This document shows positions 20,403 to 62,395 of a stretch of DNA of 64,000 bases, piece by piece. Within the stretch, counting starts at the first letter, position 1; every line of letters begins with the position of its first letter. The translations under genes were made by a program, and so were the position numbers. Source of the stretch: Cliona cf. orientalis (taxonomy: Eukaryota; Porifera; Demospongiae; Clionaida; Clionaidae); NCBI GenBank assembly GCA_963930775.1, contig OZ005704.1:5642001-5706000 (forward strand), given 5' to 3'. The notes beneath the pieces were generated by a model, which was not told the DNA's origin, did not search any database, and saw only the letters and a list, made by a program, of their open reading frames with translations.

Positions 20403-20438
<36 letters not shown>

Positions 20439-25876: not shown

Positions 25877-28273
25877 ATGAAAGTTGAAATGATTAAGTCA
25901 AGGAAAGTGTGGAGTAAAGGATGGGAGATTTTGCTGTTAACCTGTATCATTCTTGCTATTTGTGCTCTCTTCATGATACCCACAGTCTTTTATGCCCTCC
26001 CTCCATTTAGTTTGATCAAAGAGGTAAGTTAATATACCACAACGTTCATCAGTTTGAGTATAATAATTGTTATCCACTTCTCACTCTCAGCCAAAAGACT
26101 CTCGGAAGAATCATACTGATGAGAGCAATGGATCAAGCTTGAATCAGTGCGATCATTGGAAGAATTATTCTGGTCAAATCTGTTTGAATGAGTTGAAAAA
26201 ATTACAGTCCTGCTATGCTTCACAAGTTGATGTGCCAGTCCGTGTTCCTTCTAACACCAACCAAGAAGTGGCTCAAGCCACAGCCGAGAGACTGCTACTA
26301 GGTCTACCCCTGCTCTCCCCTAGCCCAGAGTGTGAGGCAGCCATCAGACCATTCCTGTGCCTCTATCTGTTTGGGTCATGTGACTCGGACAACCAACCAC
26401 TTCAAGTGATACAAGCTGACTGTGTAAAAATGAGAGATGATGTGTGTGCTCGAGAATGGGCACTGGCTGAAAGGTATCTTGGTCAAGGAGTCCTACCGGA
26501 ATGTGGGACACTTTCAAATGAAGAAGGTGAACCACCAAAAGAGGACTGTCAAGGTAGATATGGCTAATATTCTCGATAGCTGCTAATAATAATATTATTA
26601 TTATTGCCACTGCTATACTGGATTATTTTTTTAATGATTCCACTTTGTTAGCAAAACAAAACAGAGGAGATACATCAACTGATCTCCAGTCGAGCACTAA
26701 CACTACACAAGATTGTGGTGGAGGGTATTACCTGAGTGAGAGCGGTGTGTGCAGACCTCTTTGCTCTCTCTGGACAGAGCCAGCAGAAGTTGATGCAGAC
26801 TATATTGGCATCATAGCAGCAGTAATCATTTGCCTACCATCATCGCTTGTCCTAATCACTGTGGCCCTCATCTTTCAAAGAAAAAGCATGTGCGTTTGCA
26901 TATTAGATACTGTAACACCTAGGATGCCTTATTCTGATGAGTAAAAAAGATCATTATTATAGATCATCCTATTATCTATTAATTTTGCAGGTTAATATTC
27001 CCAACATACTACTTGATATACTTATGCATTACAGCAATCCTCATCGGTAAAATTAATAATTTTCATATCATTGCAGTTACTGTATCTTTACATGCATGCA
27101 GCTGTGGTCGTCTTAATAGGACTTGCTTCGAGAGGGAAGCTATTCTGCACTTCCAATGATCTACTTGAGACATTTGCCAATGGAAATGCATATTGTACAT
27201 TCTCAGGTTAAACAATGTCACGATGGCTACGTAGCTAAGCATGATGTTTGCAATAATTATTATTCACGTGCATACAGGTATTGTCTTCACGTATGGAATG
27301 TCACAGCTGGGAATTTTTATTCTATTTCATGCCGTTGGTCTCTGCTGGGGTGTTGTTTTTCCATTTCACTTTCGGAAGTTCAAAGCCGAAGGGAAACTCA
27401 AATATGTCCACATTACTACGTTGCTCATTGCTTTGCTCCTGCCACTAGTTCCAGCTCTGCTGCAACTCAAAGATGGCTATGTGGTGGCAAACTCACCGAC
27501 AGTCATTTGCTATGGACGAAGCATTGATGTCACGTTCTTTTCATTTATTCTACCAATGAGCACTATCCTTGCTGTAGCGACATCCATTCTCACCATCATG
27601 TTTTGGATAATATTTAAGGTGAACACATCAGATTCTATACATAATGATTGTACCCCTTTGCAGCAATGAGCTCAGTTGTGATTTTCTTTCAGTTTTCCAT
27701 ATAATAGTCCTAGCGTTTCCCCTTTTTTAATACCTAAGCTACTGTAAGAGAGCACAGGCAGGATATGTTTATGGGGATGTCACTCTAGCTATACGTACTG
27801 TGATTATGTTACAGCATAAATTGATGCGCGCATGTACTATAGCTACTGGGTATCATCCTATCATGATGTACTATTGAATTCATACAATGTCATAGAAATT
27901 GGCATTGAAGAAGCTATCCAAGTCAGTGAAGAGCAAACAGACTGGTGTACTGAAAAAGGCTGAGGCAAAGATCCTCTTCATCATGTGTTACTACATATTT
28001 GTTGGAACCCTTGTGCTGACACTGTTCACCTACTTCGAGGCAACTAAAGAGGCCGAAATTCAAGTCATTGAAACATTCTTTATTTGCCAAAGCAGCGGGC
28101 TTGAATCAGACGACGACTGTGGTGATACTCCCCAGGTTCATCTGGCAGTATTTGATTCACTGTCCGCCTTGGCTATCATCCTGATTGGACTCTTGCCATC
28201 TGTCGTCATAGCATTCACTTTGAAGTGTGAACATCGACAGGAAAAATCTATAAAGAAAAACAGCAACTGTTAA
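25877..28273 (+). CDS. Frizzled-like receptor A (TM0 + CRD-like + 7TM)
   Basis: Exons: 25877-26023, 26091-26553, 26652-26889, 26991-27046, 27102-27206, 27278-27618, 27896-28273; they sum to 575 codons plus stop with all phases fitting. The start is ATG 25877, giving only about 17 residues before TM0 (ILLLTCIILAICALFMIPTV); an upstream exon is possible since relatives have 60-120 residues there. The CRD-like domain runs from CDHWKNYSGQIC to EDCQ, with PECEAAIRPFLCLYLFGSCD as its core. Seven helices follow. TM4 begins KYVHITTLLIALLLPLVPAL, and TM6 is preceded by KKAEAKILFIMCYY. The tail after TM7 (KCEHRQEKSIKKNSNC) is 18 residues long and lacks KTxxxW. It pairs with B as a subfamily (both have CRPLCSLWTEP and DADYI). 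Class F similarity is strong in TM2-TM5. Ligand unknown; surface receptor inferred. Confidence 0.88.
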
Positions 28274-28766
28274 GAATTGGATAGTAATAATGTAGATTGT
28301 GATTTATTTATACACTCAGTCTAGCTACTTATAATTATACTGTTATAGCATTGTTATTATAACCCCAATGTGCATTATCGATGTATATGTATAATATCTC
28401 AATTGGAGATCCTCTTTTAAAAGGGCCTGACATGGTAGCTATACAGTGTAAACAAGAACCAGCTTCTTTCAACTGACAGGGTTTAATATTGGTATAATAA
28501 TTATACCGGTACATGGAATGCGAGGTATCTGAATTTATTAATAAGTCAAACAACCACTGCACATGATCACAATATTTTTGCATGTAGCTAGCTAGTTATA
28601 ATTATATATCCTGAAGACAAGTTATAACAATGATTACAGTAACTATGACATAACACAGCTCAACAATGATTACAGTAACTATGACTAAGCATAATAAGCA
28701 ATAACATTATAATTATTGTTACAGTACTGTAACATTGAAATTATGCTAATATCATCACTATAGTTA
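28274..28766. other. Convergent spacer between receptor A and the CARD-like gene
   Basis: Both 3' UTRs must lie here. The only structure seen is a 36-bp tandem duplication: AACAATGATTACAGTAACTA occurs at 28626 and 28662. Confidence 0.6.
28626..28685 (+). repeat. 36-bp-period direct repeat
   Basis: The 24-bp stretch starting AACAATGATTACAGTAACTA is present twice, identical, at 28626-28649 and 28662-28685. Confidence 0.85.
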
Positions 28767-30577
28767 TCAGACGTAGGAGCTTATCCTCTGACTACACAAA
28801 TAACAGCGACAATGCATATTTTTTAGCCGGTTAATAGAGGCTTGAAGTTCCTCTTTTTCCCTTGTATGTGTCTCAGTCATTGAATCCTTTTCTTCCTGAA
28901 GTTTATCATTCTTGATTTTTAGCTCATTTTCATCCTTCTGCAGTTGAATCTTTTCCTTTTCAGCCACATTAAGAGCATCGACCATTTTCTTGTATTTTTC
29001 ATTAGCAACAGTTGCTTCTCGTTTAATTTTCATTTCGTATTCATCTATCATTTCCTTTTGAATTCTTATTTTACCCTTAAGTTTTTCAATCTTCCTTCTA
29101 CATTTAGCAACCTTCTCTTTCAATAGCCTTACATTCTCACTATTACGTCCTTTAGCAGCCTTAAGCTTCTCTTTCAACTCTTCCAATTCATTATTTTTCA
29201 AAGCTAGTTTCTTTTTTAGTCTCTTCTTTTCATTTCTTGCTTCATCACTCTTTTTAATCGCTTTCTGCAGCCTGTCGTGGTCACCCTCCTCTGGTTCAGG
29301 TTGCACTGGAACTGCACTCGATACCGACATTAATTTGTGGTTTTCTTGAATTGATGTTATTAGGCTTGGGCTAATTGCATGTGGCATTTTCATTGACAGA
29401 ATATTAAGAAATATCTCAAAGCACCTTTTATCTATTGCAATATTATCTTTTACAGCTTGCAACAATATTCTGGGTTTGTCTTGATTGTACACGTTTAATA
29501 TTTGCTCATACTTGCTCTTAGATATAATGCCTTCGGCTAGGCACTGATCTGATATAGTGAGTCTGGAGGACAGGTACTAATAGCACTGACTAGCTCAGGA
29601 GTAAATTTTTGAATAACTCTGATTTCTGGAATTACTGTGAAGAGTCTAGCTTGATCATTACCGGTTGCATGTGGACTGCTTTGTGAATTAAATGTCTGGT
29701 ATTTTTTTCTAATGGCTTGAACCTGGTCACTGCAAAGTGGAAATTTTTCCAGAATACTCATTGAAATTTCAAAGCAGCTGTTACATGCATGAATAGCATC
29801 CTTAATTGCAATTAATAGGATCCGGACTTTATTATCACTTGGTACCGGAGACTCCAAAAGTCGCTTATACATCCCATCGGAAATGAGCCCATTAGCCAGA
29901 AACCGGTCTGATACCGCCAAAACACTGCAGGTACTAATCGCTGTCACTAACTTTGGAGTGAAGTTTTGAATGACTTTGATTTCTTGAACTTGAGCATCAG
30001 TGAAGAGCTCATCCAACGGTTCAGTTTCCATAGCACACTCATTTTGACTTTCGTCAACCTTGTGACGCTTACATGGGGGCATATGCATAGTAACTTTCAA
30101 TTGTTCTTCAATTTCCCTTACCAATTTGTTTTGACCGCCAAGTGGTTTCAAAATCTTCAACCTGAGAGACTCGAAGCAGCTTGCATCACGTTTGACACAC
30201 GTTTGAAGAGCATCCAACAGGATCTCAGATTTCTTGATATTTGATTCATTCTTAACAGACTCAGGATCAAGAATACGTTTGTACGTGTTCTCAGAGATAA
30301 GTTGTTCACGTAGGCACTCGTCAGCAATTTCTTGGACACCATAAGCACTGAAAGCCATAGTTAGTTGTGGAATATAAGTTGCAAAGATTTCTGCAGCCAT
30401 CATAAACTGTGTATGGTTGGATATTGATGAATGCACAACTCGGCTTAGGTTCGATCTTCTCAGTTCACGTGTTAGAGATCCACAAAGTGGAGGGTTTTCC
30501 TCCTTAGCTCTTGACATGCGCTGTCTCGCAGGCTCCACCCCTGCTGGGTTTACACGTACTACAGGGTACCGCCTCAT
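28767..30577 (-). CDS. CARD-like repeat protein with C-terminal coiled coil; frame interrupted
   Basis: An intronless minus-strand frame encodes three related helical modules of about 85 residues. Each follows a death-fold/CARD-like pattern: TPxLVxAIS, then a hydrophobic run, then LISDxxYKRIL, then KVRILLxAIKDxI, then CFEISMSIL. Module 2 sits at about 29960-29715 and module 3 at about 29640-29390. A charged Lys/Glu coiled coil follows (29300-28800), then a Cys-rich end (CRCYLC). Compared with module 2, module 3 contains two extra bases around 29550-29572. The frame is therefore broken unless this is a sequencing error or allele. The first ATG is 30577; MSRAKEEN or MMAAEIF slightly downstream are plausible alternative starts. 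Adaptor in death-fold signalling is inference; the closest named family is not certain. Confidence 0.7.
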
Positions 30578-30683
30578 TTACGCTAATTAATATGCAATAA
30601 TAAGCCCCTCCCCTCTTACGTGTAGTAGGAAATGGTCGTTAGCTAGCCGTTTTGATGGGTGTGGCTCGTAACTATAAACCACA
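30578..30683. promoter_or_regulatory. Candidate bidirectional promoter between two death-fold genes
   Basis: Only 106 bp separate the first ATG of the minus-strand CARD-like gene from the ATG of the plus-strand Roc-COR gene. The gap contains GCCCCTCCCCTC (GC-box-like) and an A/T-rich TTAATATGCAATAATAA, but no clear TATA box. True start sites may lie within either first exon. Confidence 0.5.
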
Positions 30684-37145: not shown

Positions 37146-37196
37146 TAATATTACTAGCTCTGATTAACCTATCAATATTTTTACGCACAACTTTAT

Positions 37197-37628: not shown

Positions 37629-37645
37629 GTCTCTAGGTTGTTCAT

Positions 37646-38056: not shown

Positions 38057-38080
38057 GTCTCCAAGTTGTTCATTATCTCC

Positions 38081-39591: not shown

Positions 39592-41868
39592 ATGGCTGCC
39601 ATTGTCACAATTGAATTTGTCAAATCGGGTGCCGATTGCTGCTTGAAAGATGGAGAGCAACATAAACCACAACTAGACTCTAAAGTATCAGTATCAAAAG
39701 AAGATCTAATCAGTGAGCCTCGTCTTCAAACGAAGTCAGTCTGGAGAAGGAGATTAGAAATCATTGTCTTGACCTGCATCATTCTGGCTGTATGTGCTCT
39801 GTTTGTAACACCAACCATCCTCTATGCTCTGCCTCCCCTCAGTGTTATAAGAATGGTAAGTTTAGTACTTGAAATATGTACTTCTCAATTACACAACTCT
39901 AGCTATAGCTGTAAATTTCAAAGTTTCAGAGCCCACTTAATGATGGACAAGAAGTGAATCAGTGTGGACAGTGGAAAGAATACGCTGGTGATATTTGTTT
40001 TGGTGAGCTAATGGAGCTGCAGTCATGCTATGATTTGCACAAGAGTATGGTAAGAGTTCCATCTGATACCAACCAAGAAGAGGCTGAGGACACAGCCAAG
40101 AGATTGCTACTAGGTCTACCCTTGCTCTCACCTAGCCCAGAGTGTGAGGCAGCCATCAGACCATTCCTGTGCCTCTACCTGTTTGGGTCATGTGACTCAG
40201 ACAACCAACCACATCAAGTTACGCAGGAAGATTGTGAGATGATGAGAGATGATGTATGTGCACATGAGTGGGTGCTGGGGGAGCAATACCTGGGCCAGGG
40301 TATACTGCCTGACTGCAGCACTCTTCCAAACCAAGAAGATGATTCAGAATGCCAATTGCAAAGTATAGCTATTAAATTCACACAAAGCCTTGGTAACCAT
40401 AGAGGCACGTATTGTTTTGTATGGCTATAGGCTTCAACAGCACAAGTAGTTCAATGGAGAATGCAGATTTCTTCACTAATATCACATGTGCTGATGGCTA
40501 CTATCTCAGTGACGTCAGTGGTGTGTGTAGACCTCTTTGCTCTCTCTGGACTGAGCCTAGGGACATTGATGCAGACTACATCGCTGTAATTGTAGCAGTA
40601 GTTGTTGGCCTCCTCTCGGCAATCGCTCTTGTTATTCTGGCTCTTACTCTTCAAAGGAAAACAACGTATGAGCTCATTCTTTAAGCAGTTAGCGAATAAT
40701 GTATCTAGTGACATTTTATTGTCGATATCCATGATTGTAGGTTAAAGTTTCCGACATACTATCTAGTGTACCTCTGCATGACTGCAATTGCTATGGGTAA
40801 GTTAGCGTGTAGTTATTTAGTTATATTATGTGTGGTATGCATGAACTTAGAAGAGTGCATCATGCATTTCTACAGTATCAATCACTGTACAATAATACTA
40901 TTACAGGTATTCTTCTTCTAATTGGATTGGTATCCAGGGGGAAATGGTTTTGCAATTCTCATGATCTCTTAAACACATTCATCAATGAAACAGCATATTG
41001 TACTTTTTCAGGTACATTGCTTATCACTACAACTACAATTCTTTATTAATTCTTAGCACTATCGATCTTCATTGCTACGTAGGAATTGTTTTCACATATA
41101 TTCTGGCACAACTTGGACTGTGGATATTTTTTCACTCCCTCGGTCTGTTCTGGAGTGTGGCTTTCCCACTTCATCTGAGGAAATTCAGAGCTGAAAAGAA
41201 AATCAAGTACATCCACGTCACTACAGTTCTCATTGCACTATTCCTACCGCTGGTTCCAGCCCTGCTTCATCTCATTAGAGGCTATATTCACTGGGAAATA
41301 CACCTACGGTCATCTGCCTGGGACGTAGCATTGCTGTCACCTTCTACTCATTTATTCTACCGCTGAGCATAATCTCAGGAATAGTTACATCACTACTGAT
41401 TATCTTATTTTGGATCATCTTTAAGGTAGGAGCAATTTCATTAATAAGTATTTTTCATACTATTATTATGAATTTCAATCATAGAAATTGTTTTTAAAGA
41501 AAGGTTCCAGAGCAGTGCAGAGTAGCAGTGGGGCTGGCCTGAGCATACTGAAGAAAGCCGAGGCCAAGATCCTGTTCATTATGTGCTACTACATCCTACT
41601 GGGGACAGTGGTGCTCACACTGTTCACCTATTTAGAGGAGAGTGGTGAAAATCCAGAAGTGTTCCAGGCAATTGAGAAACACTTCACGTGCCAAAGCACA
41701 GGGATACAGCCTGGCAGAGACTGTGGAAACTCTCTACGTGGCTTTCTTTCTGCTTATAGTGCCCTGTCGGCAATATCGACCGTACTCTCTGGTTTGCTAC
41801 CAGTGGTTGTCATGGCATTCACTCTAAAGTATTCATGCAAAAAGTGCAAGAGAAGCATTAAAGATTAA
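39592..41868 (+). CDS. Frizzled-like receptor B; frame interrupted in exon 6
   Basis: Exons: 39592-39855, 39930-40362, 40431-40665, 40741-40796, 40907-41011, 41083-41425, 41485-41868. The ATG at 39592 gives about 55 residues before TM0 (LEIIVLTCIILAVCALFVTP). CRD-like core: PECEAAIRPFLCLYLFGSCD; TM1 is preceded by CRPLCSLWTEPRDIDADYI. In exon 6 the second extracellular loop region has two extra bases relative to A (23 against 21 between GGCTAT and GTCATC, near 41282-41304). This leads to an early stop, yet the downstream TM5-TM7 sequence (SFILPLSIISGIVT, then exon 7) is well preserved. Either a young pseudogene, a null allele or a sequence error. Exon 2 ends CAAA rather than CAAG at its donor. 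Tail KYSCKKCKRSIKD lacks KTxxxW. Confidence 0.82.
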
Positions 41869-42031
41869 CTAATGGATAAGTCTAAGCCGTTATCATGAAT
41901 ATGTTAGTTATTAATAATTAATTTTGGTCAATTAAGTGTTATAATTATGTGAAATTCAAAATGTACACAAGGAATGTACAGATTAATTAATAGTTGAAAA
42001 GATCAGTCAATCCTCCACATACAGTATATTA

Positions 42032-46337: not shown

Positions 46338-48979
46338 ATGGAAGAGGAAGCAGTGTCTGCCATGCCTTTGGAATATGTGCATTCATCAGTAGTCAGTGTA
46401 GAAATGAGTCCGGATCCGCCTCCAGAAAGTATGATTCAAGAGACCAATGTGGATCTTCCCACAAGAGCAAGTTCCACCGAGCATCGTGATCACCCAGCTT
46501 CAGAGTTACCATCCAAGGTGCTGCAAACAACTCATTCTACAGGCCCAAAGCCTAAGCTTGAGTCAGTGGTTCAATGTATGCATAAAAATTGGAAGACAGC
46601 ACTAGAAATGGCAATACTGATTGGTCTCATTCTCATCGTTTGGACTCTGTTTTCTATACCAACAATCCTATATGGCCTTCCTCCTAATGTCAAAGAGGTA
46701 GGACTTTAAGTGATCAAAAATAGCTAGTATTATATCTGATTCATGTTCTTTTAATAATGCAATCCACAGTCTGAGACCAACTTTGCTGGCAATGTCAACC
46801 AATCAGCATCAAGTTGTGATCAGTCGGTGACCTATGAGGGACAAGTTTGTTTGAGTGAACTTACTCGATGGCAACAGTGCTTCTCACCACAATCTGACAA
46901 AGTCTACCTCCCATCTGACATCAACCAACAAGAAACTGAGGCCACTGCCAACTTCTTGCTACTAGGTCTTTTAATGCTATCTCCCAGCGCAGAGTGTGAG
47001 GCAGCCATCAAACCTTTCATGTGCCTCTATCTGTTTGGGTCATGTGACTCAGACAACCGACCACATCAAGTTACACGAACTGACTGTGAGAGACTGAGAG
47101 ATGATGTATGCTCAGAAGAGCTTGTACTAGCTGTAGATTTATTTGGTGAAGGTATCCTGCCAAACTGTGATGATCTTCTTCAGCAAGCGGATGAATGCCA
47201 AGGTATAGTACATAATATAGTATTGTTTAGACATAACATATATACATTTTCTATAAAATCACTCAGGGAGCTGATTGATATAGCTATTGTCTTAAAGTTT
47301 GTCTAAATATGCAGATAACGGCAGTTCAATGGTCCTATTGGAATCTGATCCAAGTATGACAGGGCTAACTCCAGAAGCTGTCACTGACAACCATTCTAGC
47401 ATAGTCTGTGCAGAAGGCTATTATCTAAGCAGTGATGGTAGCTTTTGCAGGCCCCTCTGCTCCCTGTTGGTAGATCCACCAGGTGTTGGTCTGGACGCAC
47501 ACAATATAGCTGTCTTAATCGGTGTGATCATAGCCTTGTTTTCATCAGGTACGGCCATAATACTGGCTCTTACCATTCAAAGGAAAAGAATGTGAGATGA
47601 TGCTTCTTTTGCCAATTGTTATGACGTGATCCTTCTATGTATGTAATAGGTTGACATTTCCAACAATATATCTGGTCTTCTTTTGTATCACAAAAGCCAT
47701 AATTGGTAAGCTGTTTACAGTAGTTGTCTGACTAGATGACGTTATGAAAGGATAATAATAATAATAATATTATGCATTATGATAAACTTTATTTCAGCTC
47801 CAATAATATTAATTGGATTCACTAACAGAAAGAAACTCTTTTGCTCCTCTGATGACCTGTTGGATAGTTTTCAAGAAGAAACAGCATTTTGCACTATAGC
47901 AGGTATCTTTAAAACTGTAGTGACTTTCAGTTAGTACAATAGATCTCTTGCAGATATATCCATGTTGCTGTAGGTCTTATAATATTATTATATATACGTA
48001 GGAGGTGTCCCTATATTTTGTACCATTGGAACCATACGGCATGGGAACATAGTGGGTTTATAGTGTCATAATTAATTTTATTACGATCAAGTGACTTCCA
48101 AATTTTCCTGGTTTATCACAAATAAAACTGGTCGCCCATTGTATTCACAGGTATTATCATCACTTATGGTGAGGCACAAGTAGGGTTTTGGATGGCTTTC
48201 CATGCTGTTGAGCTCTGCTGGGGAGTTGTCTTTCCTTATAACTTTCGGCGGATGAAAACAGAACAAAAAATGAAGTATTTTCACATTACAGCCATACTAT
48301 TGGCCTTACTCTATCCCACTTTACCTGCTTTCATCAATCTTCATGATGGATATGTAATCGCCGGTAGTCCCACTACTGTCTGTTTTGGTCGGAGTAGCAC
48401 TATCACTTTCTTTGGACTAATTCTTCCCCTAAGTATACTGATAGCTGTGGCTACATCGGCACTGATCATTACATTTTGGAAAATTCTCAAGGTATGTGAA
48501 TTTTGTCAAATTAATATGACTGAGTAATGTATTACATTCTTGTTAATGCCTTAGAGTATACTTGAATAATACAGTGTGTTCATTAACAATTCCAGCAATT
48601 TGTCTTAAAGAGCGGGAACCAGGCCACCTCTGTCAGGAAAGCTCAGGCTAAGATATTGTTTGTCGTGTGCTACTATGTTGTCTCTGGAATTATAGTGCTT
48701 ACAGTCTACAGCTACTACCAGGTGGCTGGAGAAGCCAACGTTCAAGCCGTGATCAGACACTTCACCTGTCAAAGTGCTGGAACACAGTCTGGCAGAGACT
48801 GTGGTGACATTCCCAATGTTCATCTGGACGTATTTGATTCACTTCTTGCACTGAGTCTAGTCCTGATAGGCCTACTGCCAGCTGTGATTCTGGTGTTCAT
48901 GGTGAAGTGGAACTGCAATGATAAATGGTGTGCAAAAAAGAACCTTTCTTCGACAGGGATAACTCTTAATATGCAGTAG
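46338..48979 (+). CDS. Frizzled-like receptor C
   Basis: Exons: 46338-46697, 46770-47202, 47315-47591, 47650-47705, 47798-47902, 48151-48491, 48596-48979; 651 residues. About 90 Ser/Thr/Pro/Glu-rich residues precede TM0 (LEMAILIGLILIVWTLFSIP). The CRD-like domain reads CDQSVTYEGQVC...WQQCF, then AECEAAIKPFMCLYLFGSCD, then DCERLRDDVC, PNCDDLL and DECQ. TM1 follows CRPLCSLLVDPPGVGL. TM3-TM4 contain EAQVGFWMAFHAVELCWGVV and KYFHITAILLALLYPTLPAF. It has the longest tail of the family (KWNCNDKWCAKKNLSSTGITLNMQ by eye), with Cys and Lys but no KTxxxW. The exon 7 acceptor gives Gln in place of the Glu seen in E-G. Frame intact; class F-like fold well supported. Confidence 0.9.
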
Positions 48980-49713: not shown

Positions 49714-52379
49714 ATGGAAGCCTTCCAGGAAGGTGAATCAGTTGCTTCATCGGCTACTGCGTATACAGAATACACAGATAGTTCAGCTCTAGATCTCACT
49801 GTGAGAACGAGTCTCACCAGTCAGAACCCAGCATCAGAGGTGCCAAGGTTATCCACAATACCTAGAGATACGTCTTCAACTGGACTCGTACACACAGAAC
49901 AGAGGCCGAAGTTTAATCTTAAATGTGGAAACTGGAGGAAAGCATTGGAAACTGTCATACTGATTGTTACTATTCTCATTGTTTGGGCTCTATTCTCCAT
50001 ACCTACAATATTTTATGCCCTCACGCCCAAGATTAGGGAGGTATCAATTACCATTGTATAATAATCATGATGCTTGCTCTATTGTAAGCTAGATCTATTA
50101 TTCTCAACTTGTAGTCTGGGATCAAGCCTTCTGACACCGTGGACTCAAATTGTGATCAGAAGGAAGTCTATGAGGGAGAAGTTTGTTTAAATGAACTTGC
50201 TAAATGGCAACAGTGCTTTTCTCCAGGGCCAGAACCTAATATAATCTACCTTCCATCTGACATCAATCAAGAAGAGGCTGAGGGAACTGCCACAGGTCTG
50301 GTAGATAGTCTAGGCCCACTTTTGCTCAGCCCAGAGTGTGAGACAGCCATCAGATCATTCCTATGTCTCTACCTGTTTGGATCATGTGACTCGGACAATC
50401 AGCAACATCGAGGAACACAAGAAAACTGCGAAAGTCTGAGAGATGGTGCGTGCGCAAGTGAGTTTATCCGAGCACAAGGGCTATGTCTCCTACCCAACTG
50501 CAATGATCTTCAGTACGAAAAAGAATGTCAAGGTAGCTATAACCAGTGGGTAGCTAACTAGATATACTTTTTGCATAATTACTTTTGTGTATAATTATAT
50601 AGAAGGTGAAAATTCAACGTTCCTAAAATTTAATATGAGTGACTCGACGTTGAAAGTTGACAACAATTCTGGCATAGTTTGTGCTGAAGGGTACTATCTC
50701 AGTGATGACAACTTGTGCCTGCCACTCTGCTCCCTGTGGGTAGATCCACCTGGTGGCATTGGTCTAGGCAAAGTAGCTACCGGAGTCAGTGCAGTCATTG
50801 CCCTGTTCTCATCAATCATAGCCATAACACTGGCTCTTACTGCTCAAAGGAGTACAATGTGAGGGAACTATAGGCAATCACATTAATATCAAGTTGTTAA
50901 TAACGTATACAGGTTGGTATTTCCAACATTATATCTGATTTACTGTTGTGCCACATCAGCCATAATTGGTAAGTACAATGTAACAATAATATTATTATGA
51001 CATTGTACTTGTGTAGTGCATGCCTCTGTATGGAAGCGTGATTGTATATTCAACCAGGAGCAAGCATATTATTATCCTTGACTGCATGTTTATCTTTTCT
51101 TCTATCCAGCTCTGTTCATTTTAATTGGATTCACCAACAGAGAGAAGCTCTTCTGTAGTTCTGAAGACCTTTTTGGAAGTTTTGAAAATGAAACAACCTT
51201 TTGCACCATAACAGGTATATACAATACAGTGTCGTGTAGATATGATCATAACACTATTTGGAACTGTAACTACCCTACCACCATGCACAATTGCAAGACT
51301 GGATGAACATCTGTCATTGCCGGGATTGCATGCTATAATAATTCTATGTTTTTGTAGGCATTATTTTCGTGTATGGCCTAGCGCAACTGGGATATTGGGT
51401 GACGTTTCATGCTATTGCTCTCAGCTGGGGAATTCTCTTTCCATTTCACTTTCGGAGGATGAAAATAGAGAAAAGGCTGAAATACTTTCACATTTCAACT
51501 GTCCTGCTGGCCTTGTTCCTTCCAACCTTGCCTTCATTAATTCATCTCAATGATGGATATGTAAAAGCAAGTATGCGAACTACCCTCTGCTTTGGTAGGA
51601 GTGCTGCAGTCACTTTCTTTGCACTAATTCTTCCCCTGAGTGGACTCATGGCTGTGGCTACATCAGCGCTGGTCACTGTCTTTTGGAAAATTCTCAAGGT
51701 AAGCACAAACAAGGGGTTTATCTGCATAGCATAGAGCCCAGCAGGGTGCGTTCCCACCCCCCTCAAGAAAGTATATCGAAGATTTATGTTTCTTAGATAG
51801 CTTTTTGGATCCCCTTCCCATACCCATCTTCTTGGTCTGCCTTATTGGCTCATTAGTCCAGCTCTATATACCTCCTCTGTTCCCCCAAAAATTTTGGGCC
51901 AGATGCATGCACATGCGCAAACACTACATGTAGTTACAGGCATTACTCAACATAGTAGGAATATTATAACTAGCACAAGACAGGTTAATATGGCTTTCTA
52001 CAAAATTTAGGTATTTGTTCTGAAGAGGTTCTTTGACATGAACAAAAGGAAGCAGACTGCTCCTATTGTCAAAGCCGAGGCAAAGATTTTGTTGATCATG
52101 TGTTACTACATTGTCCTGGGGACTCTGGTTCTCACAGTGAACACTTACTACCAGGTGGCTGGGGAAGCTGTGGCTCAAGCAGTGACCAGCCATTTTGATT
52201 GTCAAAGTGCTGGAACACAGTCTGGCAGAGACTGTGGTGATTTAAGCAACCTTTATGTGGCAGTATTTAATGCACTATCTGATCTGGGAATCATTCTGAT
52301 TGGCCTACTGCCCGCTGTGGTCCTGATATTCACAGTATCGTGTAACTGCAACAATAAACACTGTAAATATTGGAAGTAA
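49714..52379 (+). CDS. Frizzled-like receptor D
   Basis: Exons: 49714-50040, 50115-50532, 50603-50858, 50913-50968, 51110-51214, 51358-51698, 52011-52379; 623 residues. About 80 residues precede TM0 (LETVILIVTILIVWALFSIP). The CRD-like domain is more diverged than in C or E-G: PECETAIRSFLCLYLFGSCD, ENCESLRDGAC, LLPNCNDLQ. TM1 is preceded by CLPLCSLWVDPPGGIGLG, where Leu replaces the Arg of CRPLC. TM3: AQLGYWVTFHAIALSWGILF; TM4: KYFHISTVLLALFLPTLPSL. Exon 7 starts VFVLKRFFDMNKRKQTAP and ends CNCNNKHCKYWK with no KTxxxW. Frame intact. Same direction and spacing as its neighbours. Confidence 0.9.
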
Positions 52380-53085: not shown

Positions 53086-55626
53086 ATGGAAGGTGAGGCA
53101 GCTGCATCAGTTGCTGTGTACATGGAATACATGGAGTCACCAGCAATTGTGAAGAGATCAAGTACTGTAACAGCTCCTGTAGGCCTCATCAGGGTTCAAG
53201 AGTCTGACATAGATTTACCTACAAGGAGAAGCATCAACAGTCCATGCTCTGCCACTTTAGAATCACCAAACATGACGCCTGTAAGAGCAAGTCCGACAAG
53301 TACACACCCATCATCAGAGTTGCCGACCCTGATGCCTAGAGATGAGTCATCGACTCAACTTATGCCACATGATAAATTCAAATGTGGAAGCTGGAAAACT
53401 GGATTGGAAGTTGGCATGCTGAGTGGGATTATTATAGTTGTTTGGATGCTATTTTCTATACCAGCAATCCTTTATGCCCTCCCGCCCAAGATCAGAGAGG
53501 TACACCTTCAGAAGCTACATTGTGTAATATGTATCACTACCATTAGTAATAGTTACTGTTTATGTATGCTTCTTTCAGCATTGTATTGCTCTCAATTTGC
53601 AGTCTGAGACAGGCCCCACTGATAACGTGGACCAATCAACATCAAGTTGTGATCAGAAGATGATCTATGATGGACAAGTCTGCTTAAGTGAGCTTACACG
53701 ATGGCAACAATGTTTTTCTCCACTATCCGATGCGGTCTACGTTCCACCCAATATGGAGGCTGCAGAGGCCACTGCCGAATTCTTGCTATTAAATCTACCC
53801 CTGCTCTCCCCTAGTCCAGAGTGTGAGGCTGCCATCAGACCATTCCTGTGCCTCTATCTATTTGGGTCATGTGACTTAAACAATAACCTACATCAAGCTA
53901 CGCAGACAAGCTGCATCAGACTGAGAGATGACGTGTGTGCACGAGAGTTTATACTAGCTGAAGGGATAGTTGGTCAAGGTGTGCTACCCAATTGTGATGA
54001 TCTCCTTCAGCAAGAAGAAGAATGCCAAGGTCAGAAGGATAATTACTTATTACTATTTAAGGGGTATTCTCTTCTAATCATGTAGATAGTGAAAATTCAA
54101 CATCCCTCAATATGACCGAAGTGACTGTCGTCAATCGCTCAGCCATAATTTGTGCTGAAGGGTATTATCTCAGCAGTGATAACCTGTGCAGGCCCCTCTG
54201 CACCCTCTGGGTAGATCCACCAGGTGTTGGCCTGGACTCGGACAACATAGCCATCATAGTGAGTGCCATCATTGCTGTGATTTCATCCATTACAGTTATA
54301 GTACTGGCTCTTACTGTTCAGAAGAGTACAATGTAAGTTAAACTGACCATTAAATTTTTTTCTTGCCAATAATAATAATATTATGCTTCCATATATTATA
54401 GGTTGACATTTCCAACCACATACCTCATTTATTGTTGTACCACAATAGCCTTTACTGGTAAGCTACACTACACTGACATGATAGATCACTATAGTGACAT
54501 GCATGAGGTAGCTTTCCTGTACATTAATTTTACTCATATTTTTACCCCAAACAAAAGTACCTAAAGCACCCAGTGATACTAAACTGGCTGTATTATTCAT
54601 GCACAATACATCTTTTTCAGCTCCATTCACTTTAATTGGATTCATTAACAGAGAAAAGCTTTATTGTACCTCTGAAGACCTATTTGAAAGTTTTCAAGAT
54701 GAAACAACCTATTGCACAGCAGCAGGTACCTAGCTACACTATATCGGCAGTCAAGTTTGTGTATGAGATAGTTATTTGTGTGTGTACACTTGCAGGTGTT
54801 TTCTCCACTTATGGTCAGGCACAACTGGGATACTGGGTGGCTTTTCATGCCATTAGCCTCTGCTGGGCAATTGTCTTTCCATTTCACTTTCGGAGGATGA
54901 AAGTGGAAGGAAAGCTCAAGTATTTTCACATTGCGACAGTTCTGATAGCTTTGCTCTTTCCAACCTTACCTGCTCTAATTAATCTTCGTGATGGATACGT
55001 TATGGCTGACAGACCAACCACCCTTTGCATCGGTCGGAATGTTGACATTATTTTCTTTGCACTAGTTCTTCCACTGTGTGTACTCATAGCTGTGGCTATA
55101 TCAGCGCTGATCATTAAGTTCTGGAAAATTCTTAAGGTACATGTCATACATGAGCCACTCCTAAGCTTCTGATGCAATGTTATAGCCATGCCTATTCTGT
55201 GTATTGAATGTCCCAAGTATGCACACTATAGTGCAAATCTTATTACTCCAGGAGTTTGTTCTGAAGAAGTTGTTTGACAGAAAACGAGACCTTGTCCTGA
55301 AGAGGGGAAAACAGACCACTCCAAGTGTTGGAAAAGCTCAGGCTAAAATTCTGTTCATCGTGTGCTACTACATTGCTCAGGGGACTATAGTCCTGACGCT
55401 GCTCACTTACTACCAGGTGGTGGATAAAGCTGATATTCAAGCACTGACCAGCCATTTCACCTGTCAAAGTGTTGGGATACAGTCAGGCAGAGACTGTGGT
55501 GATTTACCCAATATTCACCTGGAATTATTTAATTCACTTACTGCACTGGGAATTGTTCTGACTGGCCTACTACCAGCTGTGGTTCTGATATTCACAGTAA
55601 AGTGTGACTGTAACAATAACAATTAA
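53086..55626 (+). CDS. Frizzled-like receptor E
   Basis: Exons: 53086-53499, 53603-54029, 54086-54332, 54402-54457, 54621-54725, 54796-55136, 55252-55626; 654 residues, all phases consistent. The roughly 110-residue N-terminus is rich in Ser, Thr and Pro and ends in Lys-containing KCGSWKTG before TM0 (MLSGIIIVVWMLFSIPAILY), suggesting a signal anchor with the N-terminus inside. Ten cysteines lie between SSCDQ and EECQ. Potential N-glycosylation sites (NST, NMT, NRS) lie between CRD and TM1. Seven helices in exons 3-7. ECL1 and ECL2 cysteines (YCTSEDLF..., TTLCIGR) could form the usual class F bridge. Tail: VKCDCNNNN. From exon 3 onward it is nearly identical to F. Confidence 0.92.
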
Positions 55627-56162
55627 TTACATGAAATATCATGTACCACAATAGTATATGTTGTACGGATATCTACAGTTATAGCTATCATGCATAATGG
55701 TAACTGCTGAATATATATAATGCATATGATGACTCTTGGCCAGTATTGGATTAAATACATGAATGCTTAGCAGTAGGAAACAATTCTTTTCATATGCAAT
55801 AAGCAACACATAGATTCTGAATTGAATGCTAAATTATAATAATATATAAAGGTTGACATCTGATGTGTTCTTCATTCTTGGTGTGTGTGTGTGTGTTTGT
55901 GTATGGAGGCATCACTACTAGCTATATTCGGCAGTGAAAATTAATACTGATGTAGCTTTACTTTGACAATGGACAATCCCCTGATGTACAACAAAGAGCA
56001 TACCAAATCTATTCACAACTAGTACTACAAAAGCAATACTACAATAATATTACTATAGTATATGCATAATATATTGCTGTAGCTAAGGGTCAACAGTAGT
56101 ACTAGTCTAATTGTGACTAATCTGCATTAGCTGAAGCTAACCTGAACAACAATAAAAGTAAG
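55627..56162. other. Spacer E-F, duplicated upstream of G
   Basis: The region from about 55670 to 56162 is nearly identical to 59360-59852 (for example TAGCTATCATGCATAATGGT, AAGGTTGACATCTGATGTGT and CTGAAGCTAACCTGAACAAC just before each ATG). It probably holds the shared promoter of F and G. A (GT)n run sits at 55881-55896. Confidence 0.75.
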
Positions 56163-58737
56163 ATGGAAGGTGAAGGAGCTGGATCGGTTGCTGTGTATAT
56201 AGAATACACTGAGTCATCAGCAACTGTGGAAAGATTAACTACCTCAGCTCCTGTAGGCCTTGTCAGGGTTCAAGAGTCAAACATAGACCTCACTACAGGG
56301 GGAAGCTTCAACACTCCATGCCCTGCCACTTCAGAATCACCAGTCACGATAGCCAGTCCCACTGATCAACATCCACCATCAGAGTCGCCAACTCTGATAC
56401 CTAGAGATCAGTCATCAACTCGACTTGTTCAACATCACGGTGATGATTGCACAACAAAACAGCATTCAAAGCCCACATTTGGAAGATCGATTCCATTCAA
56501 ATGTGGAAACTGGAAAACAGGATTGGAAGTTGGCATGCTGAGTGGAATTATTATCATTATTTGGGTGTTATTTTCTATACCAGGAATCCTCTATGCCCTC
56601 CCGCCCATAATTAGAGAGGTATACCTTCAGAAACTACCACTACCCTTTAGATTACGTGTGCTTCAGAAGTTCTTTCAGTTACCAGTAGCTATTGTAATGC
56701 TCTCAATTTGCAGCTGCAGTCTGAGACAACTCCCACAGGTAGTGTGGTCCAATCAACATCAAGTTGTGATCAGAAGATGATCTATGATGGACAAGCCTGC
56801 TTAAGTGAACTTACACAATGGCAACAATATTTTTCTCCACTATCTGATGCGGTCTACGTTCCACCCAATATGGAGGCTGAGGCCACTGCCGAGAGACTGC
56901 TACTAGGTCTACCCCTGCTCTCCCCTAGTCCAGAGTGTGAGGCAGCCATCAGACCATTCCTGTGCCTCTATTTATTTGGGTCATGTGACTCAGACAATAA
57001 CCTACATCAAGTTACACAGATAAGCTGCATCAGACTGAGAGATGACGTGTGTGCACGAGAGTTTATACTAGCTGAAGGGATAGTTGGTCAAGGTGTGCTA
57101 CCCAATTGTGATGATCTCCTTCAGCAAGAAGAGGAATGCCAAGGTAATTAATTATATACTTAACAATAAGAATAATTAATCTATTATGTAGATGGTAAAA
57201 ATTCAACATCCCTCAATATGACCGAAGTGACTGTCGTCAATCGCTCAGCCATAATTTGCGCTGAAGGGTATTATCTCAGCAGTGATAACCTGTGCAGGCC
57301 CCTCTGCACCCTCTGGGTAGATCCACCAGGTGTAGGCCTGGACTCGGACAACATAGCTATCATAGTCAGTGCCATCATTGCCGTGATTTCATCCATTACA
57401 GTTATAGTACTGGCTCTTACTGTTCAGAAGAGTACAATGTAAGTTAAACTGACCATTAAATTTTTTTCTTGCCAATAATAATAATATTATGCTTCCATAT
57501 ATTATAGGTTGACATTTCCAACCACATACCTCATTTATTGTTGTACCACAATAGCCTTTACTGGTAAGCTACACTATACTGATATAATATGATAGATCAC
57601 TATAGTGACATGCATGAGGTAGCTTTCCTGTACATTAATTTTACTCATATTTTTACCCCAAATAAAGTGCCTAAAGCACCCAGTGATACTAAACTGGCTG
57701 AATTATTCATGCACAATACATCATTTTTCAGCTCCATTCACTTTAATCGGATTCATTAACAGAGAAAAGCTTTATTGTACCTCTGAAGACCTATTTGAAA
57801 GTTTTCAAGATGAAACAACCTATTGCACAGCAGCAGGTACCTAGCTACACTATTTCGGCAGTCAAGTTTGTGTATGAGATAGTTATTTGTGTGTGTACAC
57901 TTGCAGGTGTTTTCTCCACTTATGGTCAGGCACAACTGGGATACTGGGTGGCTTTTCATGCCATTAGCCTCTGCTGGGCAATTGTCTTTCCATTTCACTT
58001 TCGAAGGATGAAAGCAGAAGGAAAGCTCAAGTATTTTCACATTGCGACAGTTCTGATAGCTTTGCTCTTTCCAACCTTACCTGCTCTGATTAATCTTCGT
58101 GATGGATACATCATGGCCGACAGACCAACTACCCTTTGCATCGGTCGGAATGTTGATATTATTTTCTTTGCACTAGTTCTTCCACTGTGTGTACTCATAG
58201 CTGTGGCTATATCAGCACTGATCATTATGTTCTGGAAAATTCTTAAGGTACATGTCATACATGAGCCACTTCTAACCTTCTGATGTAATGTTATAGCCAT
58301 GCCTATTCTGTGTATTGAATATCCCAAGTATGCACACTATAGTGCAAATCTTACTACTCCAGGAGTTTGTTCTGAAGAAGTTGTTTGACAGAAAACGAGA
58401 CCTTGTCCTGAAGAGGGGGAAACAGACCACTCCAAGTGTTGGAAAAGCTCAGGTTAAAATTCTGTTCATCGTGTGCTACTACATTGCCTTGGGAACTGTA
58501 GTCCTGACACTGCTCACTTACTACCAGGTGGTGGGTGAAGCTGATATTCAAGCACTGACCAGCCATTTCGCCTGTCAAAGTGTTGGGATACAGTCAGGCA
58601 GAGACTGTGGTGATTTACCCAATATTCACCTGGAATTATTTAATTCACTCACTGCACTGGGAATCGTTCTGACTGGCCTACTACCAGCTGTGGTTCTGAT
58701 ATTCACAGTAAAGTGTGACTGTAACAATAACAATTAA
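56163..58737 (+). CDS. Frizzled-like receptor F
   Basis: Exons: 56163-56618, 56720-57143, 57192-57438, 57508-57563, 57732-57836, 57907-58247, 58363-58737; 667 residues, frame intact. The N-terminus is about 14 residues longer than in E (adds GRSIPFKCGNW and neighbours). TM0: MLSGIIIIIWVLFSIPGILY. In the CRD-like domain one cysteine present in all six other copies is replaced by Tyr (WQQYFSP against WQQCFSP), so one disulphide may be lost. TM3-TM7 are almost identical to E and G. The intron between exons 1 and 2 stays open in frame with exon 1 for a stretch and has two possible acceptors (CAGCTGCAG), so alternative splicing by two codons is possible. Confidence 0.92.
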
Positions 58738-59852
58738 TTAAGTAACAAACATGAAATATCATGTACCACAATAGTATATGTGAATGCATCAAGTAAAAAC
58801 TGAGGAAACTTTAGGCATAATAATTTATACCTGGCCTGATTATAATATTATTTGACCAGCTGTGAGAAAAGGGACTGTTTGGGATTGTTTTGTTTGTACA
58901 TGTAGTATGTATGTAGCACGCAATGTACTGTTGCAGTTGCTGTATGCCTCGAGCTCTGCAGTGTGTCTATGGCTAAGGCTACACTGGTCTGCTACAAGTA
59001 CACTCACAACTACATTATAGTAGTAGTTTGTAGTATGTAGCTTCAAACATTGTTATGTACCATCAAGGGCTTATAGACCCCAAAGGGGGAGAGAGCATGT
59101 CTATAAGCCCTTGGTACCATGCAATGTACTCTGGATTTACTCTGTGTTTGTGGTAATAGCTACTCTGGTACAAGTATATATACTCACAACAATTTGTAGA
59201 AGCATGCAAGTGGATATTGAGGTAATAATATACTCACAACAATTTGTAGAAAGTATGCAAATTGGATATTGAGAAATGGTCCTTTAACAATAACTGTTGA
59301 TTTTCTGAAATTGAAACTATGCTTTAAGTTTCCTTTTTATTTGATACATTCACATATGTTTATAGATATCTACAATTATAGCTATCATGCATAATGGTAA
59401 CTGCTGAATATAATGCATATGACTCTTGGCTAGTATTGGATTAAATACACGAATGCTTAGCAGTAGGAAACAATTCTTTTCATAATGCAATAAGCAACAC
59501 ATAGATTCTGAATTGAATGCTAAATTAAATTATAAAGGTTGACATCTGATGTGTTCTTCATTTTTGGTGTGTGTGTGTTTGTGTATGGAGGCATCACTAC
59601 TATGTAGCTATATTCAGCAGTGAAAATTGGTACTGATTCGATGTAGCTTTACTTTGACAATGGTCGATCCCCTGATATACAACAAAGAGCACACCAAATC
59701 TAGTCACAACTAGTACTACAAAAACAATACTACAATAATATTATTATAGTATGTGCATAATAATTATATTGCTGTAGCTAAGGGTCAACAGTAGTCTAAG
59801 AGTGACTAATCTGCATTAGCTGAAGCTAACCTGAACAACAATAAAAAATAAG
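58738..59852. other. Spacer F-G with inserted 600-bp segment
   Basis: About 59360-59852 duplicates the spacer upstream of F. The extra 58790-59340 has no counterpart upstream of F; it contains a hairpin at 59058-59117 and a 50-bp tandem duplication (TACTCACAACAATTTGTAGA at 59181 and 59231). No gene is supported. Confidence 0.65.
59058..59117. repeat. Short hairpin element
   Basis: GTACCATCAAGGGCTTATAG is mirrored by CTATAAGCCCTTGGTAC, with a purine-rich loop of about 20 bp. Possibly a miniature foldback transposon. Confidence 0.65.
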
Positions 59853-62395
59853 ATGGAAGGTGAAGGAGCTGGATCGGTTGCTGTGTATATGGAATACATA
59901 GTGTCACTAGCAACTGTGGAAAGGTTGACTACCTCAGCTCCTGTAGGCCTCGTCAGGGTTCAAGAGTCAAACATAGATCTCACTACAGGGGGAAGCTTCA
60001 ACACTCCATGCGCTGCCACTTCAGAATCATCAGCCATTATGTCCAGTCCCACTGATCAACACCCACCATCAGAGTCACCGACTCTGATACCTAGAGATCA
60101 GTCATCAACTCGACTTGTTCAACGTGATGATTGCACAACAATACAGCATTCAAAGCCCACATTTGGAAGATCGGTTCCATTCAAATGTGGAAACTGGAAA
60201 ACAGGATTGGAAGTTGGCATGCTGAGTGGAATTATTATCATTATTTGGGTGTTATTTTCTATACCAGCAATCCTCTATGCCCTCCCGCCCATAATTAGAG
60301 AGGTATACCTTCAGAAACTACCACTACCCTTTAGATTACGTGTGCTTCAGAAGTTCTTTCAGTTACCAGTAGCTATTGTATTGCTCTCAATTTGCAGCTG
60401 CAGTCTGAGACAACCCCCACAGGTAGTGTGGTCCAATCAACATCAAATTGTGATCAGAAGATGATCTATGATGGACAAGCCTGCTTAAGTGAACTTACAC
60501 GATGGCAACAATGTTTTTCTCCACTATCCGATGCGGTCTACGTTCCACCCAATATGGAGGCTGAGGCCACTGCCGAGAGACTGCTACTAGGTCTACCCCT
60601 GCTCTCCCCTAGTCCAGAGTGTGAGGCTGCCATCAGACCATTCCTGTGCCTCTATCTATTTGGGTCATGTGATTCAGACAATAACCTACATCAAGTTACG
60701 CAGACAAGCTGCATCAGACTGAGAGATGACGTCGTCAGTGTGTGCACAAGAGTTTATACTAGCTGAAGGGATAGTTGGTCAAGGTGTGCTACCCAATTGT
60801 GACGGTCTCCTTCAACAGGAAGAGGAATGCCATGGTAATTAATTATAATACTTAATAATAAAAATAATTAATCTATTATGTATAGATGGTAAAAATTCAA
60901 CATCCCTCAATATGACCGAAGTGACTGTCGTCAATCGCTCAGCCATAATTTGTGCTGAAGGGTATTATCTCAGCAGTGATAACCTGTGCAGGCCCCTTTG
61001 CACCCTCTGGGTAGATCCACCAGGTGTTGGCCTGGACTCGGACAACATAGCCGTCATAGTGAGTGCCATCATTGCTGTGATTTCATCCATTACAGTTATA
61101 GTACTGGCTCTTACTGTTCAGAGGAGTACAATGTAAGTTTAATAAGCCGACCAATGTTTCCAGCCAATAATAATAATACTTCCATAATAATATCAGTATA
61201 ATGTTATTGTAGGTTGACGTTTCCAACCACATACCTGATTTATTGTTGTACCACAATAGCCTTTACTGGTAAGCTACACTACACTGACACGCACATGATA
61301 CACTATAATAATTATAGTGATAAGCACATGGTGTCCTGCATTTACTTGGTCATTCATACACAACACATCATTTTTCAGCTCCGTTCACTTTAATTGGATT
61401 CATTAACAGAGAGAAGCTTTATTGTACATCTGAAGACTTACTTGAAAGTTTTCAAGATGAAACAACCTATTGCATGGCAGGAGGTACCTTATAACATGCT
61501 ATCAATAATTAAAGTCAGCATTATTGGTGTATGTACACTTGCAGGCATTTTTTTCACTTATGGTCAGGCACAACTGGGATACTGGGTGGCTTTTCATGCC
61601 ATTAGCCTCTGCTGGGCAATCGTCTTTCCATTTCACTTTCGGAGGATGAAAGTGGAAGGAAAGCTCAAGTATTTTCACATTGCAACAGTTCTGATAGCTT
61701 TGCTCTTTCCAACCTTACCTGCTCTAATTAATCTTCGTGATGGTTACATCATAGCCGACACACCAACTACCCTTTGCATCGGTCGGAATGTTGATATTAT
61801 TTTCTTTGCACTAGTTCTTCCACTGTGTGTACTAATAGCTGTGGCTACATCAGCGCTGATCATTATGTTCTGGAAGATTCTTAAGGTATATACCTGACCA
61901 GGAGCTTAAGTTCCTGAATTTAATATAATAATATTATTATTATTATAGCCATGCTATACATTCTCCATTTTTAATGGGCACTATGCGTGATACATAATAT
62001 TATTATTATTATTATAGGAGTTTGTTCTGAAGAAGCTATTTGACAGGAAACAGGAATTTGTCTTGAAGAGGGGGAAACAGACCACTCCAAGTGTTGGGAA
62101 AGCTCAGACTAAAATTCTGTTCATTGTGTGCTACTACATTGCCTCGGGAACTATAGTCCTGACACTGTTCACTTACTACCAGGTGGTGGGTGAAGCTGAT
62201 ATTCAAGCAGTGACCAGCCATTTTGCCTGTCAAAGTGCTGGAATACAGTCCGGCAGAGACTGTGGTGATGTACCCAATGTTCACCTGAAACTATTTGATT
62301 CACTCACTGCCCTGGGGATCATTCTGACTGGCCTACTACCAGCTGTGGTTCTGATATTCACAGTAAAGTGTAACAACAAATGTTGCAAGAAATGA
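59853..62395 (+). CDS. Frizzled-like receptor G; frame interrupted in the CRD exon
   Basis: Exons by homology: 59853-60302, 60404-60834, 60886-61132, 61213-61268, 61379-61483, 61545-61885, 62018-62395. Compared with F, exon 2 contains seven extra bases (TCGTCAG, about 60731-60737) within RLRDDVC, so the frame is lost late in the CRD-like domain and a stop follows shortly. All other exons remain open and nearly identical to E and F. The seven bases partly repeat neighbouring sequence (GTCGTCAGT), as expected for replication slippage. As read, the product would keep TM0 and most of the CRD but no seven-helix core: a recent pseudogene, a truncated membrane-anchored CRD form, or a sequence error. 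Exon 7 ends VKCNNKCCKK. One N-terminal change (EYIVSLATVE) distinguishes it from F. Confidence 0.85.

Follow-up and report, generated by a model that had tools for sequence, protein, structure and literature searches.

FZD1-10, the Frizzled receptors of the class F GPCRs, combine an Fz-type CRD, a cysteine linker and seven helices, and the class F layout of CRD and 7TM is also found in Smoothened. The receptor tyrosine kinases ROR2, Nrk and MuSK carry the CRD on a single-pass kinase receptor. Among class F receptors of sponges, the counterparts of the genes described here are FzdA/FzdB and the Halisarca Frizzleds; in the available portions of the two reports, and unlike our genes, the six Halisarca Frizzleds are laid out as CRD and 7TM in the usual way, a signal peptide appears in the drawing of HduFzdB, and most of the six retain Dishevelled motifs (PMC5684314, PMC8235796). 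For Amphimedon, eight Frizzled-like genes were counted in a study that is cited in the available part of PMC4302439. A lineage-specific expansion like ours is described for the Dictyostelium Fsl receptors, whose SMART/Pfam frizzled domains often fall under threshold and among which, in D. discoideum, KTxxxW is present only in FslJ and FslK; unlike in our genes, an N-terminal anchor and a ROR-type CRD go unmentioned in the accessible sections of that work (PMC10445921). Among the matches listed from PubMed Central open-licence full text, we found no description of an eight-helix class F layout.

The locus is a tandem array of seven genes (copies A-G) that spans 25877-62395 on the + strand of the window, that is, of the whole 64,000-nucleotide stretch of DNA analysed. 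Each gene model has seven exons, all 42 introns are GT-AG and 48-312 bases long, and the domain order is the same in 7/7 copies: head, TM0, CRD, cysteine linker, seven helices and a short tail. The original prediction was therefore right about the copy number, the exon count and the domain order, but only five of the genes are open, B and G being frameshifted, and the identical intron phases that it described (0,1,2,1,1,0) were found in copies A, C, D, E and F. When extra copies were sought across the window with tblastn (E<=1e-3), all 260 HSPs fell inside modelled exons. The gene models, with their Pfam Fz bit scores where obtained, are:

25877..28273 (+), copy A, 575 aa; exons 25877-26023, 26091-26553, 26652-26889, 26991-27046, 27102-27206, 27278-27618, 27896-28273; Fz 24.6 bits
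39592..41868 (+), copy B, frame slip in exon 6; exons 39592-39855, 39930-40362, 40431-40665, 40741-40796, 40907-41011, 41083-41425, 41485-41868; Fz 38.6 bits
46338..48980 (+), copy C, 651 aa; exons 46338-46697, 46770-47202, 47315-47591, 47650-47705, 47798-47902, 48151-48491, 48596-48980; Fz 29.2 bits
49714..52379 (+), copy D, 623 aa; exons 49714-50040, 50115-50532, 50603-50858, 50913-50968, 51110-51214, 51358-51698, 52011-52379; Fz 26.6 bits
53086..55626 (+), copy E, 654 aa; exons 53086-53499, 53603-54029, 54086-54332, 54402-54457, 54621-54725, 54796-55136, 55252-55626; Fz 19.4 bits
56163..58737 (+), copy F, 667 aa; exons 56163-56618, 56720-57143, 57192-57438, 57508-57563, 57732-57836, 57907-58247, 58363-58737; Fz 20.9 bits
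59853..62395 (+), copy G, frame slip in exon 2; exons 59853-60302, 60404-60834, 60886-61132, 61213-61268, 61379-61483, 61545-61885, 62018-62395

The receptor family is large. A profile of the exon 1 end and exon 2 matched 122 database proteins at E<=0.01 (120 of them listed, and six of these the window's own proteins). The full-length profile had zero matches in the protein collection, probably because the relatives there are single-exon ORFs outside the length limit, and two queries each against the genome contig and viral contig collections confirmed no relative. In one relative, P0077, a single intronless reading frame runs through TM0 and the CRD, with a normal-length spacer between them; this supports the predicted junction of exons 1 and 2 in the array copies.

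Unlike FZD1-10, the array copies have an extra N-terminal helix, TM0, preceded by a head of 15-120 residues:

Copy A: TM0 at 25922..26005 (+), 28 residues; head of 15 residues
Copy B: TM0 at 39754..39837 (+); head of 54 residues
Copy C: TM0 at 46602..46685 (+); head of 88 residues
Copy D: TM0 at 49945..50028 (+); head of 77 residues
Copy E: TM0 at 53404..53487 (+); head of 106 residues
Copy F: TM0 at 56523..56606 (+); head of 120 residues
Copy G: TM0 at 60207..60290 (+); head of 118 residues

These lengths agree with the prediction of a hydrophobic segment after a head of up to about 120 residues, as does the placing of basic residues ahead of it, the N side of TM0 being the more positive in 7/7 copies. 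The head was also expected to be variable and Ser/Thr/Pro-rich, which it is in copies C-G (32-35%) but not in A (13%) or B (19%), although it varies in length throughout. In the AF2 model of copy F exon 1, a single 28-residue helix covers residues 117-144 and the head is of low confidence. The uncharged stretch at TM0 extends over 26-30 residues, TM0 is about as conserved as the 7TM, and there are no glycosylation sequons in the heads, as compared to 2-4 per ectodomain. From this helix length, the conservation, and the distribution of charges and sequons, we infer that TM0 most likely stays uncleaved as a type II signal anchor, which favours the topology of eight helices first proposed. Kyte-Doolittle hydropathy, with 9-15 overlapping windows per protein, is unsuited to helix counting.

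Alternatively, TM0 could be cleaved off as a signal peptide whose n-region would, in most copies, be unusually long, and the mature protein could be an ordinary N-out seven-helix class F-like receptor. Signal peptide cleavage sites follow the -3,-1 rule, with small residues at these positions, and the small residue conserved after P-x-x-x-Y in the TM0 region (Ala in 6/7 copies, Gly in 1/7) could act as position -1; heads are short in copy A and in P0077 (about 23 residues), and it is for copy A that such cleavage is hardest to dismiss. However, both the continuous 28-residue helix and the uncharged stretch are longer than a usual h-region, the TM0 sequence is kept among paralogues and relatives including L-[PT]-P past the candidate cleavage site, and relatives on other contigs share conserved heads of the type seen in copy C. 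On this evidence, we consider cleavage less likely than an anchor.

The CRD is encoded by the second exon, which in the seven copies lies at:

Copy A: 26091..26553 (+)
Copy B: 39930..40362 (+), with an Fz match above the Pfam cut-off
Copy C: 46770..47202 (+), used for the fold model, whose nearest solved structures are ROR2, MuSK and Nrk
Copy D: 50115..50532 (+)
Copy E: 53603..54029 (+)
Copy F: 56720..57143 (+), with Tyr in place of cysteine three of the ten
Copy G: 60404..60834 (+), with the break near 60731

The ten cysteines ascribed to this domain are present in 6/7 copies (G read across its break), copy F being the exception, and each is kept in 97-100% of the aligned CRDs covering that position; together with the 122 database matches, this conservation shows that the pattern goes beyond chance. 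In the canonical Fz order, two cysteines lie between the fifth and the eighth; here there is one, and an extra cysteine lies between the second and third, an altered pattern seen throughout the 112 aligned CRDs that also sets the array apart from ROR2, Nrk and MuSK. The canonical order is partly visible in the letters of the ROR2/MuSK alignment. Among the scanned copies A-F, Pfam Fz (PF01392) exceeds its 32.1-bit cut-off only in B, with A, C, D, E and F below it at 19.4-29.2 bits, and two of the eight relatives scanned are above the cut-off and six below. The closest matches by sequence profile and by predicted fold are ROR2, MuSK and Nrk, the fold neighbours (VIA-align) being drawn from Foldseek candidates, such that families outside that list may also match; in CRDs of the ROR/MuSK type, helix alpha5 closes the lipid groove, and the model of the copy C CRD has five helices, but one of them is N-terminal. 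The Fz and structural matches expected of the array were thus obtained in part, and the profiles and the model point to an Fz domain that is nearer to ROR/MuSK than to Frizzled, with a cysteine pattern of its own, and that is joined to a seven-helix core instead of a single-pass kinase receptor.

For the 7TM, the Pfam Frizzled model (PF01534), proposed as a check, was listed for none of the proteins tried: there was no match in five copy proteins at E<=1, nor at E<=10 in the consensus, the consensus 7TM or the copy B fragment. By hhalign, on the other hand, the 7TM reached 44.2 against class F, as compared to <=28.7 in 120 shuffles, 19.7 for the reversed control and 14.4 for GLP1R, and when FZD7, FZD4 and SMO were each compared as single class F sequences, FZD7 matched best. 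An hmmsearch of the PDB returned FZD7 once, while the 7TM-only profile and the consensus 7TM returned no class F chains. Judged by these profile comparisons, the 7TM is related to class F, but distantly. The copies share with FZD1-10 a basic residue at the foot of TM6 and invariant cysteines located ahead of TM3, at TM3 itself, in ECL2 and, twice, in ECL3. The available text of the Amphimedon GPCR survey describes a start with a Pfam search (PMC4302439), and that of a recent survey the retention of candidates with six to eight helices, allowing for N-terminal signal peptides (PMC12716839). Since the 7TM escapes the Pfam model and the first helix resembles a signal peptide, the family could be missed or trimmed by either of these routes.

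Other class F hallmarks are missing. Unlike FZD1-10, the copies have a very short C tail, KTxxxW is found in the tail of 0/7, and Trp is found in TM7 of 0/7, copy C having one just past TM7. A Lys is kept in 7/7 copies, aligned to the FZD residue that we take to be R/K6.32. With R/K6.32 and W7.55 constituting the class F switch (PMC6368630), the switch is incomplete in all seven copies, the Lys being present and the TM7 Trp missing. That these are ordinary Frizzled/Wnt receptors, binding Wnt via the lipid groove, signalling through Dishevelled and diverging fast after tandem duplication, would fit the presence of an Fz domain and of a class F 7TM with FZD7 as best match, but is improbable given the proximity of the CRD to ROR2/MuSK in both profile and fold, the cysteine pattern altered throughout the aligned CRDs, and the loss of KTxxxW and of the TM7 Trp. 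The label "Frizzled-like" accordingly holds only in a qualified sense, as regards the CRD, the distantly related 7TM and the missing motifs alike.

Rather, the copies are probably class F-like receptors of an animal, in all likelihood a sponge, with eight helices, a type II anchor, a cytosolic head and a ROR/MuSK-type CRD. TM0 would leave the head in the cytosol and the CRD outside, tethered to the membrane at both ends by TM0 and TM1; the CRD would probably do without the Frizzled lipid groove in sensing its ligand, the class F core would pass the change inward to G proteins, and the low-complexity Ser/Thr/Pro-rich head of copies C-G, not a C-terminal KTxxxW tail, would supply regulatory or docking sites. 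More tentatively, with the odds slightly against it, the array may represent a large animal family that joins a ROR/MuSK-type CRD to a class F core, with eight helices and the regulatory tail at the cytosolic N terminus, in which the CRD, because it is clamped at both ends, could report ligand, force or membrane state via TM0 moving against the bundle; the lost TM7 Trp and KTxxxW would predict that its members are G protein-biased and free of Dishevelled. If the topology is true, this would be a second way of building receptors of class F, in which the signalling region in the cytosol has shifted to the N terminus from the C terminus, and would bear on the early animal joining of CRDs with seven-helix cores and on the roles of receptors near Wnt signalling before or beside Wnt.

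In the assembly, copy B is frameshifted at about 41280-41296, where exon 6 has 343 instead of 341 bases, and copy G at about 60731, where exon 2 is seven bases longer than that of copy F; both breaks may be assembly errors. These frameshifts and the CRD cysteine lost in copy F are what a mostly decaying array of pseudogenes or non-signalling decoy receptors would predict, a reading that is very improbable given the possible assembly errors, the five intact reading frames (A, C, D, E and F) and a dN/dS of 0.13-0.38 over the linker and 7TM in 10 of the 11 pairs tried, the ones for which it could be computed (21 pairs are possible).

Gene models for the seven tandem Frizzled-like receptor genes (copies A-G, all on the + strand), built by hand from the window sequence, each comprise seven exons separated by GT-AG introns of 48-312 bases at positions common to all copies (7/7); exon 4 (56 bases) and exon 5 (105 bases) are constant in size throughout, and all copies but one have a 341-base exon 6. 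The seven-exon structure of the original prediction thus stands, and so do its identical intron phases in copies A, C, D, E and F (0,1,2,1,1,0). They do not in B and G, whose exon boundaries match those of the other copies but whose phase count slips: exon 6 of B runs to 343 bases, and exon 2 of G exceeds that of copy F by seven bases. These frameshifts (copy B exon 6, 41280-41296; copy G exon 2, about 60731-60738) may mark either true pseudogenes or assembly errors; for the broken exon of G, an intact relative is found in the database protein P0033. Aligned with one another, the five intact copies have a mean column identity of 67%, and a tblastn search with A-G found no further copies in the window, all 260 HSPs at E<=1e-3 falling within modelled exons.

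The constant order of head, TM0, cysteine-rich domain (CRD) and seven helices is indeed present in all copies, and can be given more fully as head, TM0, short spacer, CRD, stalk with glycosylation sequons, three-cysteine linker, seven helices and short tail (7/7). The head is variable in size as proposed (15, 54, 88, 77, 106, 120 and 118 residues in A to G), but is Ser/Thr/Pro-rich in C-G only. Among C-G, the eight pairs compared give head dN/dS values of 0.27-0.64, and the A-C pair, on 15 codons, gives 1.42. Head motifs such as QE-[ST]-[ND]-[VI]-DL and HPxSE (E-G) recur in copy C and its relatives.

AlphaFold2, run on exon 1 alone with seven rows, yielded a model of low overall quality (mean pLDDT 54.2, pTM 0.22), in which residues 1-110 of copy F have block means of 43-52 and a single helix spans 117-144, its two middle blocks at pLDDT 92 and 85. 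TM0 ends in the motif P-x-[IV]-[LF]-Y-[AG]-L-[PT]-P in all seven copies, as well as in 11 of the 120 matches listed for a profile of the exon 1 end and exon 2 (one of them, P0147, being copy B of the array); the remaining 109 fit the CRD profile without exception, lack the upstream exon as far as examined, and are therefore uninformative on the motif. Between paralogues, TM0 identity is close to that of the linker and seven helices (46 vs 52% for A-C, 71 vs 63% for C-D, 64 vs 65% for C-E, 64 vs 64% for C-F and 57 vs 66% for D-E). With 11 of the 21 possible pairs tried, dN/dS over the 28 TM0 codons is 0.13-0.30 in A-C, B-C, C-D, C-E, C-F, E-F and E-G, higher in D-F (0.53) and D-E (0.70), and not computable for A-B and F-G.

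TM0 would most likely go into the membrane as a signal anchor; the strongest rival explanation is a long cleaved signal peptide. The 20-residue flanks of TM0 carry 3-6 Lys and Arg on the N side and 1-4 on the C side, and the net charge of the 15-residue flanks is higher on the N side in all seven copies. Sequons number 21 across the seven ectodomains (2-4 each) and none in the heads of A-G, with single ones elsewhere between TM2 and TM3 in B and in D and in the tail of C. In shuffle tests, where the copies are not independent, trimmed heads have 0 sequons in 578 residues against a mean of 2.67 (P=0.049) and trimmed ectodomains 19 in 1186 residues against 8.74 (P=0.0002). Regarding the exon 1-2 join, head, TM0 and CRD form a single ORF with a spacer of normal size in P0077 (251 aa, longest contig 2.95 Mb), and all three also share one frame in P0031 and P0043, with inserts resembling read-through introns. 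P0117 likewise has CRD, stalk, linker and TM1 in a single frame and P0083 runs from CRD to TM1 with an intron-like insert; among the relatives read, no helices after TM1 were found in frame with the CRD.

The original prediction looked to the Pfam Frizzled model, which gives no listed match to the array proteins tried; for copy A there is a weak hit to 7tm_2 (E=0.3). Against the PDB, the full-length profile matched FZD7 over about TM2-TM6 (E=2.7e-4), pairing the ECL1 cysteine with its FZD7 counterpart, while a profile of the seven helices only (rows A-E) retrieved potassium channels (E>=0.24) and none of the class F chains, and the helix consensus had no match. The relation to class F is clearer in profile-profile comparison, where the helices score 44.2 (probability 77) against FZD4/FZD1/FZD7/SMO, and 41.6, 35.5, 20.7 and 14.4 against single FZD7, FZD4, SMO and GLP1R sequences; control maxima are 21.6 in 60 column shuffles and 28.7 in 60 block shuffles, and the reversed control scores 19.7. 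This alignment is collinear over about TM2-TM6, with coinciding TM3 and ECL2 cysteines. K-Y-x-H-[IV] of the array falls on Y-F-H-[IL] of class F, and an invariant Lys on a class F basic residue that we take to be R/K6.32.

KTxxxW is absent from all seven copies. W7.55, conserved across class F according to one study (PMC6368630), is missing from the array, as no copy has a Trp in TM7. Mutating the switch is reported there to make agonists more potent in mini-G recruitment and to disrupt coupling to Dishevelled (PMC6368630), and by likeness to such mutants the array receptors would be G protein-biased. With KTxxxW and the TM7 Trp missing, G proteins would be the likelier partner of a receptor whose head would most likely stay inside, in a regulatory role, and whose CRD would lie outside the cell, tethered at both ends, passing ligand-induced changes to the class F bundle.

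In Amphimedon, three full-length Frizzleds are reported, six of nine initial Frizzled-like sequences having been discarded as fragments (Krishnan 2014, PMC4302439). The head-TM0-CRD-7TM layout does not occur in the accessible parts of that paper, of others on sponge and ctenophore Frizzleds (PMC5684314, PMC9729800, PMC2959043, PMC8235796) or of one on the freshwater sponge Wnt pathway (PMC5797367), nor, by title and abstract opening, among the matches listed from the wider literature.

The profile of the exon 1 end and exon 2 found 122 proteins at E<=0.01 among 3377 candidates, and 103 of the 120 listed have a precomputed PF01392 annotation. Grouped by apparent common contig, taken from equal size, eight lie on 621,280, six on 455,594 and seven on 355,672 bases, the last being the size given for the window's own proteins. 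P0104, one of these seven and a further CRD of the family, apparently lies on the window's contig but outside the window; its best tblastn identity within the window is 52%. Gene content and very small introns, seen beside general features of sponge genomes, would fit a sponge as the source. In a CRD tree, each of A, B, C and D is closer to a relative elsewhere than to one another, and their duplications therefore probably predate the split from the relatives' genomes. Compared in 200-column windows, copies E, F and G (53086-62395) form a mosaic. F resembles G more closely in five of the six leading windows (F-G 92-98%, E-F 73-96%) and E in each of the eight that follow (E-F 95-100%, F-G 78-95%); the change comes close to exon 3, a pattern expected of gene conversion or unequal crossing-over. 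Tandem copies, old divergence and some mosaic exchange suggest varied ligand detection by the array, which, speculatively, may be sensory or symbiosis-related.

Neighbouring features in the window:
20396-24220, + strand: exon-like pieces resembling DLST (E2 subunit, 2-oxoglutarate dehydrogenase), recognised by eye only
28767-30577, - strand: ORFs of coiled-coil-like character in which short units recur, as judged by eye; Pfam gives no convincing match
33430-37145, + strand: Roc-COR GTPase-like exon (COR-A at 31.5 bits, just below cut-off), then a Death domain (above cut-off)
42032-44391, - strand: two adjacent ORFs (409 and 367 aa), alike by eye; no convincing Pfam match
62893-63747, + strand: single-exon coiled-coil and MATH (TRAF-like) gene, with relatives to 93% identity

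Relatives of the MATH gene, P0007 and P0010, lie on contigs of 124,210 and 260,906 bases, and CRD relatives on contigs of equal size (P0075/P0096 and P0043/P0084/P0087, respectively); if equal size means the same contig, the neighbourhood of MATH gene and receptor may be conserved.
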